64,000 nt of DNA, taken from Roseicyclus marinus (GTDB taxonomy: Bacteria; Pseudomonadota; Alphaproteobacteria; Rhodobacterales; Rhodobacteraceae). The notes under the pieces were generated by a model. It searched no databases and was not told the origin of the DNA. It worked only from the letters and a program-made list of their open reading frames with translations. The DNA is taken from the NCBI RefSeq assembly GCF_036322625.1, contig NZ_AP027266.1, positions 1,615,001 to 1,679,000 on the forward strand, read 5' to 3'. Of this stretch, positions 21,937 to 27,523 are shown in pieces; position 1 is the stretch's first letter, and every line of letters starts with the position of its first letter. A program made the position numbers and the translations under genes.

Positions 21937-23481
21937 ATGGCTGAAACCATCACGGCGACACAGGCCAATACAAGGCTGCTCGGGGCAGGGGAGATCGCGC
22001 TGATCGACCTGCGAGAACCCGGACCCTTTTCCGAAGGGCATCCACTTTTTGCCGTGCCCTGTCCCTTCAGCCTGTTGGAAACGTCGATCGGCGCGCTGGT
22101 GCCGCGCCTGTCCTGCCCGGTCTTTCTGCTCGATGCGGGCGACGGGATCGCGGTCGAGGCTGCAAGTATTCTTGCCGGAATGGGCTACACGGATGTGGCG
22201 GTGATCGCAGCCGGTGCGCCCGGTTGGGCGGCGGCGGGGCTGACGCTCTACAAGGGGGTGCATGTTCCCTCCAAGACGCTCGGGGAACTGGCGGAACTCG
22301 CCCTTCACCCGCGCCCGCTGCCAGCCGAGCGATTGGCGCAGTGGCGCGACGAGGGGCGCAGGTTCCTGTTCTTTGACACGCGACCGGCGAGCGAACACGC
22401 CGAGATGACCGTGCCGGGCGCTGTCTGTCTTCCCAATGGCGAACTGGTGCACCGGATCGACAGCCTGCCCGCAGGGGCACCCATCGTTCTGACCTGCGCG
22501 GGCCGGACGCGGGGGATTGTGGGCGCAGCAAGCCTGTCGCTGTTCGATCCCAATCGCGAGGTCTGGTGGCTGGAGGACGGAACGCAGGGCTGGTGTCTTG
22601 CGGGACGGGATCTGGTCCGGGACAATGCCGTGGCCCCGCTGCCCGGCGTGGATGCCGAGATGACACGCAACCGCGCAGAGGCCTTCATGGCGGAACACGC
22701 CCTCGCCCTGATTACGGCCAAGGCGCTTTCGGCAGAACTTGGCGATCCTGGCCGCACCACTTTCGTCTTCGACGTGCGCGATAGCGCCGAGGCGAGGGCG
22801 GATCGCATCCCCTGCGCGACGGGCGCGCCGCTCGTCACGCTCGTTCAGGCCACCGACCGCTACATCGGCCCCCGGCGCGCGCGGGTCGTGCTTGTCGATG
22901 ACTTGGGGGTGCGGGGGGCGCTTGGGGCTTTCTGGCTGCGCGCCCTTGGTCATGACGTGGCCGTATGCCGGATCGACGCGGCGTTGCGCAGCCTGCCGAG
23001 CCGGGAGTTTCCAGAACCAAAGCGACACTCGGTCTCGCGCATTGCCGCAGGGACAGCGCTTCAAACCGTGGCCGAAGGCAAGGCCATGCTGCTTGATCTG
23101 CGGGGATCAAGCGATCACATGGCGGGCACTGTGGCAGGGGCGGTCTGGTGCCATCGCGCGGCGTTGCAGGTTCCACCGCCGGGTATTGCGCCCCTTCTGA
23201 TCGGCGATAGGACCGCGCGTGCCGAGCTTGCGGCGGCGACCCTGATCGCGCGCGGGCGGACCGATGTGCAGATCGTCGAGGGCGGATTGCCCGCCTTGCG
23301 CACCGCCGGTGCGCAGATCGTACCGGGGCAAGAGCTGGACCTGGACGAAGCCGTCGACATCATAAGCTTTGCCCATGGCCGCCACTCGGGCAATGCAGAC
23401 GCGTCCCGGCTCTATCTCGCCTGGGAAAAGGGGCTGGTCGCGCAATTGAGCGCGGCGGAACGGGCGCAGTTTCTCATGTGA
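21937..23481 (+). CDS. Four-domain rhodanese-like protein, one active cysteine
   Basis: A 514-residue cytosolic protein built from four rhodanese-like modules (about 5-110, 120-235, 255-360, 375-485). Each shows the short LIDLRE/FFDTRP/VFDVRD/LLDLRG strand that opens the fold. Only module 2 keeps a cysteine in the active loop (TCAGRTRG, Cys187); the equivalent loops are LDAGDG, VDDLGVRG and IGDRTAR in modules 1, 3 and 4. Rhodaneses carry persulfide sulfur, so a single catalytic module with three structural or binding modules is likely. The substrate is unknown. It lies between the Mrp operon and a PfkB kinase on the same strand, with no clear partner. Confidence 0.83.
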   Translation: MAETITATQANTRLLGAGEIALIDLREPGPFSEGHPLFAVPCPFSLLETSIGALVPRLSCPVFLLDAGDGIAVEAASILAGMGYTDVAVIAAGAPGWAAAGLTLYKGVHVPSKTLGELAELALHPRPLPAERLAQWRDEGRRFLFFDTRPASEHAEMTVPGAVCLPNGELVHRIDSLPAGAPIVLTCAGRTRGIVGAASLSLFDPNREVWWLEDGTQGWCLAGRDLVRDNAVAPLPGVDAEMTRNRAEAFMAEHALALITAKALSAELGDPGRTTFVFDVRDSAEARADRIPCATGAPLVTLVQATDRYIGPRRARVVLVDDLGVRGALGAFWLRALGHDVAVCRIDAALRSLPSREFPEPKRHSVSRIAAGTALQTVAEGKAMLLDLRGSSDHMAGTVAGAVWCHRAALQVPPPGIAPLLIGDRTARAELAAATLIARGRTDVQIVEGGLPALRTAGAQIVPGQELDLDEAVDIISFAHGRHSGNADASRLYLAWEKGLVAQLSAAERAQFLM

Positions 23482-23525
23482 TTGTCCGCTTGAGCGGCAC
23501 GGCCATAGCAGGCTAGCACAAGATC

Positions 23526-24467
23526 ATGGCCATCCTGACCGTAACGCTCAACCCGGCGATCGATCTAGAAACCACGACGCCGGAGCTTTTGCCGGGCGAA
23601 AAGCTGCGATGTCGCGAACCGCTGCGCGATCCCGGCGGTGGCGGCATCAACGTCGCGCGGGCGATCATCCAGCTGGGCGGCGCGGCAACAGCGCTTGTCG
23701 CCGCAAGCGGTGCAGAAGCCACGGCCCTCGTCGAGATGCTGGCAGGCTGCGGCGTATCCGTGGAATGCCTGCCTGCGCCCGGCGCGGTGCGGCAGAACCT
23801 GTCTGTCATCGAAGAACGGACAGGCCACCAGTTCCGCTTTATCTTTCCCGGCCCGGCATGGAACTCCGGCGATCAGGTGACCGTGTCGCAGGCGATCACG
23901 AACCGGGCAGGGCCCGGGGATTGGCTCGTTCTGTCCGGCTCCTTGCCCCCCGGCTTTTCAGCCGATGCGCTGGCGGCTCTTGTACGGCGGTTGTCGGGGC
24001 AGGGGGTGGAGGTCATGGCCGACACATCGGGCGCGGCCCTCAAAGCCTTGGCTGAGGGCAAGACGGGATTGGCCGTGTTGCGGATGGATGCGGCCGAAGC
24101 CGAAGCGCTTGCAGGGCGCGCCTTGCCGATGGCTGCGGACAGCGCGGCCCTTGCGACGGCTTTGGTGGCACAAGGGGCGGCAAGGGTCGTGATCATCGCC
24201 CGAAGGGCCGAAGGCTCGGTTCTTGCCAGTGCCGAGGGGCGTTGGTTTGCTCCGGCAGCGGATGTGGAGGTCGTGTCGCGCACCGGCGCAGGGGACAGTT
24301 TCGTCGCCGGTGCAGTGCTGGCGCTGGCGCGCGGATTGCCCTTGCCAGAGGTCCTGTCCCATGGGTGCGCCGCAGCCAGTGCAGCTGTCACCACCCCGGC
24401 AACCCGCCTCTGCGAGGCCGCGACGATGCAGGCTTTGCTGCCGTCAAGCGCGGCCCGCGCGATCTGA
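23526..24467 (+). CDS. PfkB-family sugar kinase, 1-phosphofructokinase/PfkB-like
   Basis: This 313-residue carbohydrate kinase belongs to the ribokinase/PfkB superfamily, most like 1-phosphofructokinase or 6-phosphofructokinase II (the TLNPAID start is typical of that branch). Visible are the sugar-binding PGGGGINVAR (residues 36-45), the LSGSLPPG block near 136-143 and the catalytic GAGDS (254-258) with base Asp257. With no fructose PTS or aldolase alongside, the hexose phosphate substrate cannot be named. It is the last gene before the light-harvesting operon; a 257-bp regulatory gap follows. Confidence 0.86.
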   Translation: MAILTVTLNPAIDLETTTPELLPGEKLRCREPLRDPGGGGINVARAIIQLGGAATALVAASGAEATALVEMLAGCGVSVECLPAPGAVRQNLSVIEERTGHQFRFIFPGPAWNSGDQVTVSQAITNRAGPGDWLVLSGSLPPGFSADALAALVRRLSGQGVEVMADTSGAALKALAEGKTGLAVLRMDAAEAEALAGRALPMAADSAALATALVAQGAARVVIIARRAEGSVLASAEGRWFAPAADVEVVSRTGAGDSFVAGAVLALARGLPLPEVLSHGCAAASAAVTTPATRLCEAATMQALLPSSAARAI

Positions 24468-24580: not shown

Positions 24581-24598
24581 TGTCTTGTCAGATTTACA
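24581..24598. promoter_or_regulatory. PpsR/CrtJ-type box 1 upstream of pucB
   Basis: TGT at 24581-24583 and ACA at 24596-24598 are separated by exactly 12 nt, matching TGT-N12-ACA, the known operator of the redox- and light-controlled repressor PpsR/CrtJ. It lies 127 bp before the pucB start, in an AT-richer stretch. Confidence 0.75.
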
Positions 24599-24614: not shown

Positions 24615-24632
24615 TGTCATGTCAACTTTACA
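24615..24632. promoter_or_regulatory. PpsR/CrtJ-type box 2 upstream of pucB
   Basis: A second TGT-N12-ACA, with TGT at 24615-24617 and ACA at 24630-24632. It starts 34 bp (about three helical turns) after box 1 and nearly repeats its sequence (ACTGTC, then TTTACAGTT in both). Paired PpsR sites on the same helix face are known to support cooperative repression of puc and bch promoters. Confidence 0.75.
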
Positions 24633-24724: not shown

Positions 24725-24880
24725 ATGGCCGACGATCCCGATAAGGTCTGGCCGACCGGTCTGACCCTGAAAGAAGCAGAAGAGGTGCATAGCTACCTCA
24801 TCGATGGCACCCGCGTCTTCGGCGCGATCGCGCTGCTCGCGCATGTGCTTGTGGCCGTGTCCACACCGTGGCTCGGCTGA
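24725..24880 (+). CDS. pucB: Light-harvesting 2 beta subunit
   Basis: The 51-residue beta polypeptide of the peripheral LH2 antenna in the photosynthetic membrane. Length and sequence match Rhodobacter PucB closely (DKVWPTGLTLKEAEEVH, then a TPWLG end). His40 in LLAHVLV is the axial ligand of the longer-wavelength bacteriochlorophyll, and His22 lies at the B800 side. A strong ribosome binding site (AGGAGGGG at 24711-24718) precedes ATG 24725. pucA follows after 12 bp, so the subunits are made together. Expression should be controlled through the two upstream PpsR boxes. Confidence 0.96.
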   Translation: MADDPDKVWPTGLTLKEAEEVHSYLIDGTRVFGAIALLAHVLVAVSTPWLG

Positions 24881-24892
24881 GGAGGGCACAGC

Positions 24893-25231
24893 ATGAACAA
24901 CGCAAAGATGTGGCTTGTGGTCAAACCGACCGTGGGTGTGCCGCTGTTCCTCGGCGCCGTGGCCGTGGGCTCTTTTGCCGTCCATGTGGCGGTTCTGAGC
25001 AACACGACCTGGGTTGCCGATTTCCTCTCCGGCAGCTCGGCCGGTGGTGAAACCGCAGCACTTTCGACCGAACGTGGCGTTCTGCCCGCTTCGGCCGGGG
25101 CTACCGCGAACCTGCCGATGTATATCGACGCGAATGCGGATGGCACCCAATCGATGCGCGTGATCCTGCCCGATGGCCGGACCGCCACGCTGGTGGTTGA
25201 CGATCTGACCCAGGCCGCGCTGCGGCAATAG
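24893..25231 (+). CDS. pucA: Light-harvesting 2 alpha subunit with long C-terminal tail
   Basis: The alpha polypeptide of LH2. Residues 1-45 align without gaps to known LH2 alpha chains: [15 protein letters not shown], the ligand His31, and TTW at 38-40. Positions 44 and 45 are Phe-Leu instead of the Tyr-Trp or Tyr-Tyr of B850 proteins; in the B800-820 complex of Rhodopseudomonas acidophila the same Phe-Leu pair causes the blue shift. The protein continues to 112 residues, about twice the usual 54. The tail, after a Ser/Gly/Ala-rich linker (46-75), looks like a small beta-rich periplasmic domain ([20 protein letters not shown]). The start follows GGAGGGCAC. The exact absorption maximum cannot be read from sequence. 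Confidence 0.93.
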
Positions 25232-25359: not shown

Positions 25360-26871
25360 ATGACCAGCCTTCGCGACACCGCGCTTCGGAAGATCCAGGG
25401 CATCGCGCCCCGGTTTCTTCCCTTTGCCGATGTGGCGACCGAAAGCGTGCCCCTGTCCCGTCTTCTGCGGCTGTCGCTGTTCCAGGTGACCGTGGGTATG
25501 GCGCTTGTTCTGCTGGTCGGCACGCTGAACCGCGTGATGATCGTCGAACTGGCGGTGCCCGCCTCGCTCGTGGCGCTGATGATCGCCTTGCCGCTGGTCT
25601 TTGCGCCCTTCCGCGCGCTTATCGGCTACAAATCCGACACCCACAGATCCGCCTTGGGCTGGCGCCGCGTTCCCTACATCTGGAAGGGGACTATGCTGCA
25701 ATTCGGCGGCTTCGCGATCATGCCTTTCGCGCTTCTCGTGCTGTCGGGCTACCAGGACGCGGCCGAAGCCGCACCCTGGATCGGCCAATCGGCGGCAGCG
25801 CTGGCCTTTCTCCTCGTGGGTGCGGGGGTTCACACGGTTCAGACCGTGGGCCTGGCGCTGGCCACGGACCTTGTCGAGATCGAGGACCAGCCCAAGGTCG
25901 TGGGCCTGATGTATGTCATGCTGCTCTTGGGCATGATCGGTTCGGCCCTCGTCTTTGGATGGCTCTTGCAGGATTACACGCCCGGTCGGCTGATCCGGGT
26001 GGTTCAGGGGGCTGCCGTGATCACCATCGCGCTCAACCTTCTGGCGCTTTGGAAACAGGAGCCGCGCGACAGGGCGCGTGCCAACCGGGTCGAAACGCAT
26101 CCTGAATTCCGCGATGCCTGGCGGCTTTTCGTTACGGGGCGGACGGCTGTCGGCCTCTTGATCGTCATCGCACTGGGCACCATGGGCTTTGGCATGGCCG
26201 ATGTTCTGCTCGAACCCTATGGCGGGCAGGTCCTGGACCTGTCGGTCGCGGCCACCACGCGCCTGACCGCCGTTCTGGCCGCAGGCGGGCTGGTGGGCTT
26301 TGCCATCGCCTCGCGCGTGCTCATGAAGGGGCATGATCCACTGGACGTGGCCTGGTGGGGGGCCTTGATCGGCTTGCCGGCCTTTGGCCTCATCATCGCG
26401 GCAGGTCCCATGGGCGCGGCGTGGATGTTCGTTGCGGGCACGGCTGCCGCAGGACTTGGTGCGGGGCTTTTCGGACATGGCACCCTGACCGCGACGATGC
26501 GCAGTGCGCCGCGCGCGCAGGTCGGACTGGCCCTTGGGGCCTGGGGTGCCGTTCAGGCGACGGCGGCGGGTCTTGCCGTGGCGCTGGGTGGCCTTCTGCG
26601 CGATCTCGTCCTCGGGCTGCCGGGGGCAGAAAGTTTTCGCGCCGAGGCGGCCTATACGCCGGTCTTTACCCTCGAATTCGCACTGCTGCTGATGGCTGCG
26701 GTTGCGATCATCCTCGTGCGCCGAAAACAGGCGCGACTTTCCCAGACCGTGAGCTATGTTCGCAGCCAGGATCGACCGGGTCCGAAAGCTGTATCCAGTG
26801 ACACCACGCCGCCCGACCGGCGGCCGACAGGAGGAGAGCCACATGACCACCGTCGTCTCACGGCTTTATGA
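25360..26871 (+). CDS. pucC: PucC-type LH assembly protein, MFS superfamily
   Basis: A 503-residue, 12-helix integral membrane protein of the BCH/PucC subgroup of the major facilitator superfamily, required for LH2 accumulation and probably involved in delivering or organising bacteriochlorophyll. Subgroup features are the GTLNRVMIVELAVP segment near residues 54-67, ALIGYKSDTHRSALGWRRVP near 86-105, and YIWKGTMLQFGG just after. The last 40 or so residues are polar and overlap the next gene's start by 29 nt. ATG 25360 lies 128 bp after pucA, behind the hairpin at 25264. Confidence 0.93.
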   Translation: MTSLRDTALRKIQGIAPRFLPFADVATESVPLSRLLRLSLFQVTVGMALVLLVGTLNRVMIVELAVPASLVALMIALPLVFAPFRALIGYKSDTHRSALGWRRVPYIWKGTMLQFGGFAIMPFALLVLSGYQDAAEAAPWIGQSAAALAFLLVGAGVHTVQTVGLALATDLVEIEDQPKVVGLMYVMLLLGMIGSALVFGWLLQDYTPGRLIRVVQGAAVITIALNLLALWKQEPRDRARANRVETHPEFRDAWRLFVTGRTAVGLLIVIALGTMGFGMADVLLEPYGGQVLDLSVAATTRLTAVLAAGGLVGFAIASRVLMKGHDPLDVAWWGALIGLPAFGLIIAAGPMGAAWMFVAGTAAAGLGAGLFGHGTLTATMRSAPRAQVGLALGAWGAVQATAAGLAVALGGLLRDLVLGLPGAESFRAEAAYTPVFTLEFALLLMAAVAIILVRRKQARLSQTVSYVRSQDRPGPKAVSSDTTPPDRRPTGGEPHDHRRLTAL

Positions 26872-27523
26872 CAAGGTCGAAACCGCAAACCGGGTTGCGG
26901 ACAAATTGCGCGCTCAGGGCTTTCCCGAGAGCACGCTCAGCATCATCACGAGTGCCGATGGCGCGGCCATCGCGGCTGCCCGCGTCGGTGAGGCGGCAGC
27001 CGCCGCCTATATGCGGGCAATGACGGGCGGTCAGGCGCTGTTCGTCTGCCGCGCACCCGTCACCCCGTTCGGGGCCGCGCGGGTTGCCATGGCCGCCGCC
27101 GACAGCGAAGCCTGGATCGATACGGGCCGGGGCGCCTGCAACGAATACATCCGCGAAGTCGCCAATCTCGAGAACCACACGCCCAGCATCCTGCCCAGCC
27201 ATCCCTTGATGATGACGCGCGATGATTACGTAGGCTCGGGTTGGGCGCAGTGGAGCTTTTCGGGCATCTTCATGTGGCCCACCGTATCGCGGCGGCGCGA
27301 TTACAAACCGTCAGTGATGCAAGGCACCCGCTACATGTCGCGCGGGTTCTGGCCGCGTCCGCTGCTCAGCAACAAGCCGCGCCGCGTGACCGCGATGCGC
27401 GGCGGGCGGCTGATGCTGAGCTCCGCGCGCTCGGTCTCGTCCCCGACGAAATCCTCGGTCCTGTCCGGCCATCCGCGCATTTTCGAGAAATTCGGCTTCC
27501 GCAGCCTGTCGGCCCATCGCTGA
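26843..27523 (+). CDS. Hypothetical protein, last gene of puc operon
   Basis: A 226-residue soluble protein I cannot assign with confidence. Residues 1-75 (VVSRLYDKVETANRVADKLR, then GFPESTLSIIT) look like the alpha/beta domain of YflT-type stress proteins. The remainder is basic, rich in Trp, Ser and Arg, without helical membrane spans. The start has a strong ribosome binding site (GGAGGAGAG) inside the 3' end of pucC. A terminator closes the operon just after it. Some puc operons, such as pucBACDE of Rhodovulum sulfidophilum, carry extra genes that stabilise LH2, so an accessory antenna role is plausible but inferred. Confidence 0.72.
   Translation: MTTVVSRLYDKVETANRVADKLRAQGFPESTLSIITSADGAAIAAARVGEAAAAAYMRAMTGGQALFVCRAPVTPFGAARVAMAAADSEAWIDTGRGACNEYIREVANLENHTPSILPSHPLMMTRDDYVGSGWAQWSFSGIFMWPTVSRRRDYKPSVMQGTRYMSRGFWPRPLLSNKPRRVTAMRGGRLMLSSARSVSSPTKSSVLSGHPRIFEKFGFRSLSAHR

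Follow-up and report, generated by a model that had tools for sequence, protein, structure and literature searches.

A sole LH2 alpha chain with Val41, Phe44 and Leu45 in a Roseicyclus genome predicts a single-band antenna near 800-806 nm

The pucA gene described here lies in a window of 64,000 nucleotides (the whole stretch of DNA analysed) and very probably specifies the alpha chain of the one LH2 in the cell, an antenna that, to judge from the sequence, would be of the single-band roseobacter type and would absorb at about 800-806 nm through the loss of hydrogen bonds. Having Phe44 and Leu45 together with Val41, the chain is predicted to leave the C3-acetyl groups of the ring bacteriochlorophylls without a hydrogen-bond donor, and ring pigments without such bonds would absorb near 800-806 nm, merged with B800, rather than near 850 nm. 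The rule that ties bonds to colour, as well as the values of 806 and 803 nm on which this estimate leans, is carried over from the literature by analogy; the strain is expected both to make the complex and to show it absorbing at 800-806 nm. The initial annotation of this DNA had proposed a band shifted toward 800-830 nm: the blue shift itself is supported by the 806 nm listed for Roseicyclus mahoneyensis, whereas for the position of the band 800-806 nm fits better than a range reaching up to 830 nm.

The gene, its colour residues and its tail are located as follows.

pucA, 24893-25231, + strand: LH2 alpha chain, 112 aa including a C-terminal tail
Ser27 codon, 24971-24973, + strand: invariant in 67 aligned sequences
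His31 codon, 24983-24985, + strand: bacteriochlorophyll ligand by homology, invariant in 67 aligned sequences
Trp40 codon, 25010-25012, + strand
Val41 codon, 25013-25015, + strand: stands where the 820-nm complex has its bonding Tyr41 (role of Tyr41, PMC9618040)
Phe44 codon (ttc), 25022-25024, + strand
Leu45 codon (ctc), 25025-25027, + strand
Phe44-Leu45 pair, 25022-25027, + strand: without the two C3-acetyl hydrogen-bond donors (roles, PMC8775250)
PucA tail, residues 49-112, 25037-25228, + strand: conserved PDG motif; hairpin predicted at low confidence

Codons 1-46 of pucA occupy 24893-25030, and the ORF ends at 25231. Residues 3-41 match Pfam LHC (49.2 bits; cut-off 23), and the ligand His and downstream Trp stand in LH2 register, as in LH2 alpha chains. 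The alignments shown to solved LH2 alpha chains, three in number, are all gap-free, and together with the Pfam match they bear out the earlier placement of His31 and Trp40; the Phe-Leu pair claimed for positions 44-45 is likewise read directly from its codons. V41, D43, F44 and L45 are conserved in at least 90% of 67 aligned sequences (the window counted), a set gathered with the whole PucA and so biased toward tailed forms. Against five Phe-Leu congeners, the pN/pS of the pucA core is 0.027-0.059.

Among solved chains, the best match of the window PucA is Rps. palustris PucD-LH2 (7ZE3, E 5e-16), followed by Rba. sphaeroides (7pbw). In Rba. sphaeroides LH2, Tyr44 and Tyr45 bond the C3-acetyl groups of ring pigments, the Ser27 position bonds the C13-1 keto group of a ring pigment, and the Tyr44Phe/Tyr45Leu exchange yields B800-826 (PMC8775250). 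The shift to ~826 nm had thus been given correctly, as had the presence of Phe and Leu at 44-45 in the B800-820 LH2 of Rps. acidophila (PMC8775250). Across solved complexes, bands are named at 846-858 nm where both C3 groups are bonded, at 820-824 nm with one bond only, from alpha-Tyr41 (Rps. acidophila 7050), and as a single peak at 803 nm with zero bonds to ring pigments (PucD-LH2), while Marichromatium, with different bonding, lies at ~830 nm (PMC9618040). The window PucA has the Phe-Leu pair of the B800-820 LH3 but carries Val41 where, in that complex, Tyr41 forms a bond with the alpha-bound ring pigment. With Val41 this bond is lost, which makes 800-806 nm more probable than 826 nm; and because Phe-Leu gives 826 nm in Rba. 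sphaeroides, the band would not be fixed by Phe-Leu alone, other features contributing.

The closest named relative, among the best 80 of 206 matches, is R. mahoneyensis DSM 16097, with PucA 89% identical to that of the window and one PucA match in its genome. Its alpha residues 1-48 are identical at 47/48 positions (sole change S36T) and its beta chain at 50/51 (sole change A2S). The table of a 2025 review lists the R. mahoneyensis antenna at 806 nm, along with D. shibae (804 nm), R. litoralis (806 nm) and Hoeflea (805 nm), and the review describes F44L45, the motif of the window PucA, as common to the single-band "LH4" antennas of aerobic phototrophs, including Roseobacter denitrificans and R. 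litoralis with one band (PMC12654162). The likeness to aerobic phototrophic roseobacters suggested earlier is upheld by the review, and the near-identical R. mahoneyensis at 806 nm, the no-bond 7ZE3 and the shared F44L45 together lead us to expect 800-806 nm. The window motif and tail also occur at Roseobacter-named loci (L048, L049, L051, and L066). For R. elongatum, the review tabulates a peripheral antenna at 802 nm with a shoulder at 850 nm (PMC12654162), and the Roseicyclus elongatum genome paper regards the reaction centre as the source of the 800-nm membrane peak (PMC4149021); given these two published attributions, an LH2 share of the peak may have been overlooked.

A search of the genome (one contig, 3,552,491 bases) with PF00556 returned 4 matches, i.e., pucB and pucA of the window plus a second pair at 3.425 Mb, ~1.8 Mb off, which we take, judging on its residues, to be of LH1 type (PufB/PufA). 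Because this second pair is LH1-type, the window pucBA is the only LH2 found in the genome, a single pair as befits the sole peripheral antenna of an LH4/B806 cell, and the pucBAC operon is separate from the puf genes, as in LH2. What had been noted as the only puc operon in the window is accordingly the sole pucBA found in 3.55 Mb, and the search for further pucA copies proposed in the initial annotation yielded none but the LH1-type pair. On the + strand, pucB, pucA and pucC are followed by a 226-aa ORF; besides pucA, the features of the operon and its upstream region are as follows.

First TGT-N12-ACA box, 24581-24598, + strand: motif match upstream of pucB
Second TGT-N12-ACA box, 24615-24632, + strand: motif match upstream of pucB
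pucB, 24725-24880, + strand: LH2 beta chain, 51 aa (Pfam LHC, 39.4 bits; cut-off 23)
pucC, 25360-26871, + strand: LH2 assembly protein, 503 aa (Pfam PUCC, 496.9 bits; cut-off 21)
226-aa ORF, 26843-27523, + strand: conserved neighbour, overlapping the pucC end

Relatives of the 226-aa ORF lie 3' of pucC on the same strand at 65/80 loci, and upstream on the opposite strand in 3. No Pfam or NCBIfam family matched this ORF above cut-off, and a weak YflT-domain match fell below it. The pucB product exceeds the cut-off of the NCBIfam LH1 beta equivalog pufB_517_ASD (64.5 vs 61 bits), so automatic annotation may label this LH2 beta chain as LH1. The two boxes before pucB presumably form a PpsR/CrtJ-type operator. 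At least one such box lies within 250 bp before pucB at 90 of 97 loci, against 4.6 expected from shuffles, and at least two at 78 of 97, counts that retain near-duplicates; in the whole window the motif occurs 9 times against 5.9 expected and is not clearly enriched. Positions 21937-24467, 5' of the operon, encode a multi-rhodanese protein of 514 aa together with a sugar kinase of the PfkB family.

To place the Phe-Leu pair among relatives, as had also been proposed, PucA residues 1-52 were searched against 394 genomes drawn from the window's family at close to one for each genus. Matches were found in 55 genomes at 60 loci, 59 of them readable (L143 in G296, a gene split between two frames, was excluded). 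Positions 44-45 read Phe-Leu in 41 of the 59 (window included), Tyr-Tyr in 8, Tyr-His in 4, Tyr-Leu in 3, and Phe-Tyr and Tyr-Val in 1 each; L144 reads Tyr-Trp by alignment and Pro-Ile by the Trp rule. Phe-Leu is the commonest LH2 alpha state in this family sample, and the window is no exception; with its conservation in at least 90% of the 67 sequences, this frequency indicates that the pair is not there by chance. The 41 Phe-Leu chains come from genomes with a single match each (drafts may miss copies), two matches being found in 5 genomes of other types. A class-wide sample gave matches in 12/385 genomes (14 places), where, besides the window, L189 alone has Trp-Val-x-Asp-Phe-Leu with a tail, and L197 and L199 have Phe-Leu but Leu or Phe at 41. 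Two further searches of relatives matched 8/61 genomes each, all already in the family survey set, and tblastn against plasmid records gave no match.

After codon 48, PucA continues into a tail of ~64 residues that is conserved and not repetitive, a feature on which the initial annotation was silent. In the family survey, the tail accompanies 40 of the 41 Phe-Leu proteins (exception, L126) vs 4 of 18 others, as scored by a sequence pattern wide enough to include L094. Asp94-Gly95 is invariant in the 67 sequences, whose recruitment by whole-protein search favours tailed forms. In seven comparisons, the pN/pS of the tail is 0.17-0.43, a constraint weaker than that of the core, at which the tail looks translated and constrained. 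No Pfam or NCBIfam family matched the tail above cut-off. AlphaFold2 gave a mean pLDDT of 64.3 with a low-confidence hairpin (87-91/97-101), and Foldseek found zero matches of this model in the PDB at E <= 0.001, so we claim no fold. A limited literature search, from which we claim no absence from print, found no role assigned to the conserved tail; assembly or ring packing would be our guess.

For Roseobacter denitrificans, the band is reportedly put down to a serine together with the surroundings of the C13-1 keto group. Along such lines, the ~806 nm could arise mainly from the C13-1 keto environment, the serine or the tail, with Phe44-Leu45 as a passenger, and the invariance of Ser27, the near-constant company of the tail and the 826 nm reached by Phe-Leu alone elsewhere (PMC8775250) speak for it; yet the Rba. 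sphaeroides B850 LH2 also has Ser27 (PMC8775250), and PucD-LH2 reaches 803 nm with a 59-residue, tail-less alpha chain and no ring-pigment bonds (PMC9618040), and we consider this account unlikely. We regard as still more improbable an antenna of the B800-826 type, in which, despite the loss of the same bonds, a second band is held at 820-830 nm by coupling and by the remainder of the pocket. It is what the Rba. sphaeroides Tyr44Phe/Tyr45Leu complex displays (PMC8775250), and the Rba. sphaeroides alpha chain is the second-best solved match; the best, however, is the 803-nm complex, nearly the same core belongs to the 806-nm antenna of R. mahoneyensis, and D. shibae, R. litoralis and Hoeflea fall at 804-806 nm, going by listed values and not by pucA comparison (PMC12654162). 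That pucA is silent and the antenna not made deserves hardly any credence, given an intact operon, strong codon-level constraint and two conserved upstream boxes. Loss of the C3-acetyl bonds with a band at 800-806 nm is thus the reading we prefer. Facts that count against it are the retention in the window of Ser27, a third donor, the ~830-nm band of Marichromatium under other bonding, and the 850-nm shoulder of R. elongatum.

Within the window's genus, PucA matches were found in 12/13 genomes, of which 9 read Trp-Val-Ala-Asp-Phe-Leu and 3 read Trp-Tyr-x-Pro-Tyr-Val, i.e., with Tyr at Trp+1 and Trp+4. The Tyr-type congeners (R. marinus, L017/L172; Roseibacterium persicicum, L016; and L014) carry two extra residues before the Trp, an insertion by which the register may change. 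Genomes of this genus were assigned to R. mahoneyensis, R. persicicum and R. marinus through their contig coordinates. We mapped position 44 onto a PucC tree (midpoint-rooted; 92 taxa, 83 of them tailed) built without L160 and L174 (short), L017 and L036 (duplicates), and L163, L165, L166, L168, and L170 (no PucC match). Position 44 changes at least 6 times among the 83 tailed taxa, but branch support is low in places (0.14, 0.43, 0.58) and the tree does not cleanly separate tailed from tailless types, so that the number and direction of these changes are approximate. Tyr occupies position 44 at 7 tips, and at 6 of them Tyr also directly follows the Trp. The tailed PucA of L125, L128 and L130, from three separate genera, combine Tyr41, Tyr44 and Leu45, possibly a natural regain of hydrogen bonds.

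The R. marinus congener has a PucB identical to that of the window and a PucC that is 89% identical and groups with it (support 0.94). Along pucBA, DNA identity between the two, scanned in 90-column steps, is 0.83-0.97 across pucB and the pucA start and 0.83-0.94 across the later tail, but 0.38-0.62 in steps starting from 24925 to 25042, where R. marinus and R. persicicum are 0.70-0.86 identical; at the last such step, where the linker varies, the window and R. mahoneyensis also drop to 0.70-0.75. Sites joining R. marinus and R. persicicum, against those joining R. marinus and the window, number 37:2 in the segment and 14:32 in the pucBA flanks (P 3.5e-10), and with L014 in place of R. persicicum 31:5 and 20:15 (P 0.009), P values that are post hoc because the segment bounds were picked after seeing the identity scan. 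The pucC sites are mixed (116:147 and 114:167). In one comparison, the low mid-pucA identity thus weakly suggests exchange of a segment; the 20:15 flanks, where the window has no advantage over L014, count against it. A tentative reading, toward which we are somewhat more doubtful than inclined, is that pucA codons ~21-50, with the ligand and positions 41-45, may serve in the genus as a colour cassette exchangeable between species. Its forms would be the blue V41-F44-L45 and the one with Tyr at Trp+1/Trp+4, for which regained hydrogen bonds and a red shift are predicted; the remaining parts of pucA, like the adjoining genes, would keep another ancestry, and blue antennas more broadly would have repeatedly regained paired tyrosines, all of this sharing the same doubt. 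Alternatively, the R. marinus mosaic may stem from an old allele inherited by common descent, combined with other exchanges, or from convergence. No donor of the Tyr-type segment was seen among the matches in 12/398 phylum-wide genomes (best, 66% identical), and searches for sister species of the three Tyr-type genomes gave, in each genus, only that genome.

The link between motif and colour is already in print (PMC12654162), and the antenna type has been described in close relatives; our analysis adds a sharper wavelength estimate and natural variants in the same genus. The window pucA is one well-supported case more of hydrogen-bond residues set against antenna colour. With R. marinus the window forms a natural pair, alike in PucB and close in PucC but different in the colour residues, and through such pairs the spectra of congeners could test the bond rule without engineering.

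Set beside known systems, the 803-nm no-bond complex 7ZE3 shares Trp40-Val41 and Phe44 with the window but reads Trp-Val-Ala-Lys-Phe-Met instead of Trp-Val-Ala-Asp-Phe-Leu, with Met45 by chain sequence (its paper gives the order both ways) in place of Leu45; its alpha chain is tail-less at 59 residues, and it is one among several LH2 of Rps. palustris. The B800-820 LH3 of Rps. acidophila 7050 (1IJD, E 1.4e-12) resembles the window at 44-45 but has the Tyr41 bond and a 53-residue chain without a tail, whereas the window has Val41 and a tail. Extended alpha chains are also known from Rubrivivax gelatinosus, where the extension is linked to LH2 assembly (as cited in PMC5069747), from Rps. palustris PucAb/c and from L135, L137, and L139; the window tail is non-repetitive with a PDG motif, unlike the Pro/Ala-rich extension of Rps. 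palustris (PMC5069747) and the Ala/Pro/Glu-rich ones of L135, L137, and L139. Roseobacter denitrificans and R. litoralis are likened to the window by the description in the review and not by their own genes. The R. mahoneyensis "LH4" has the same W-V-A-D-F-L motif and a tail, differing from the window by tail substitutions, and its 806 nm is the value of an orthologue, the window strain being known from its genes.
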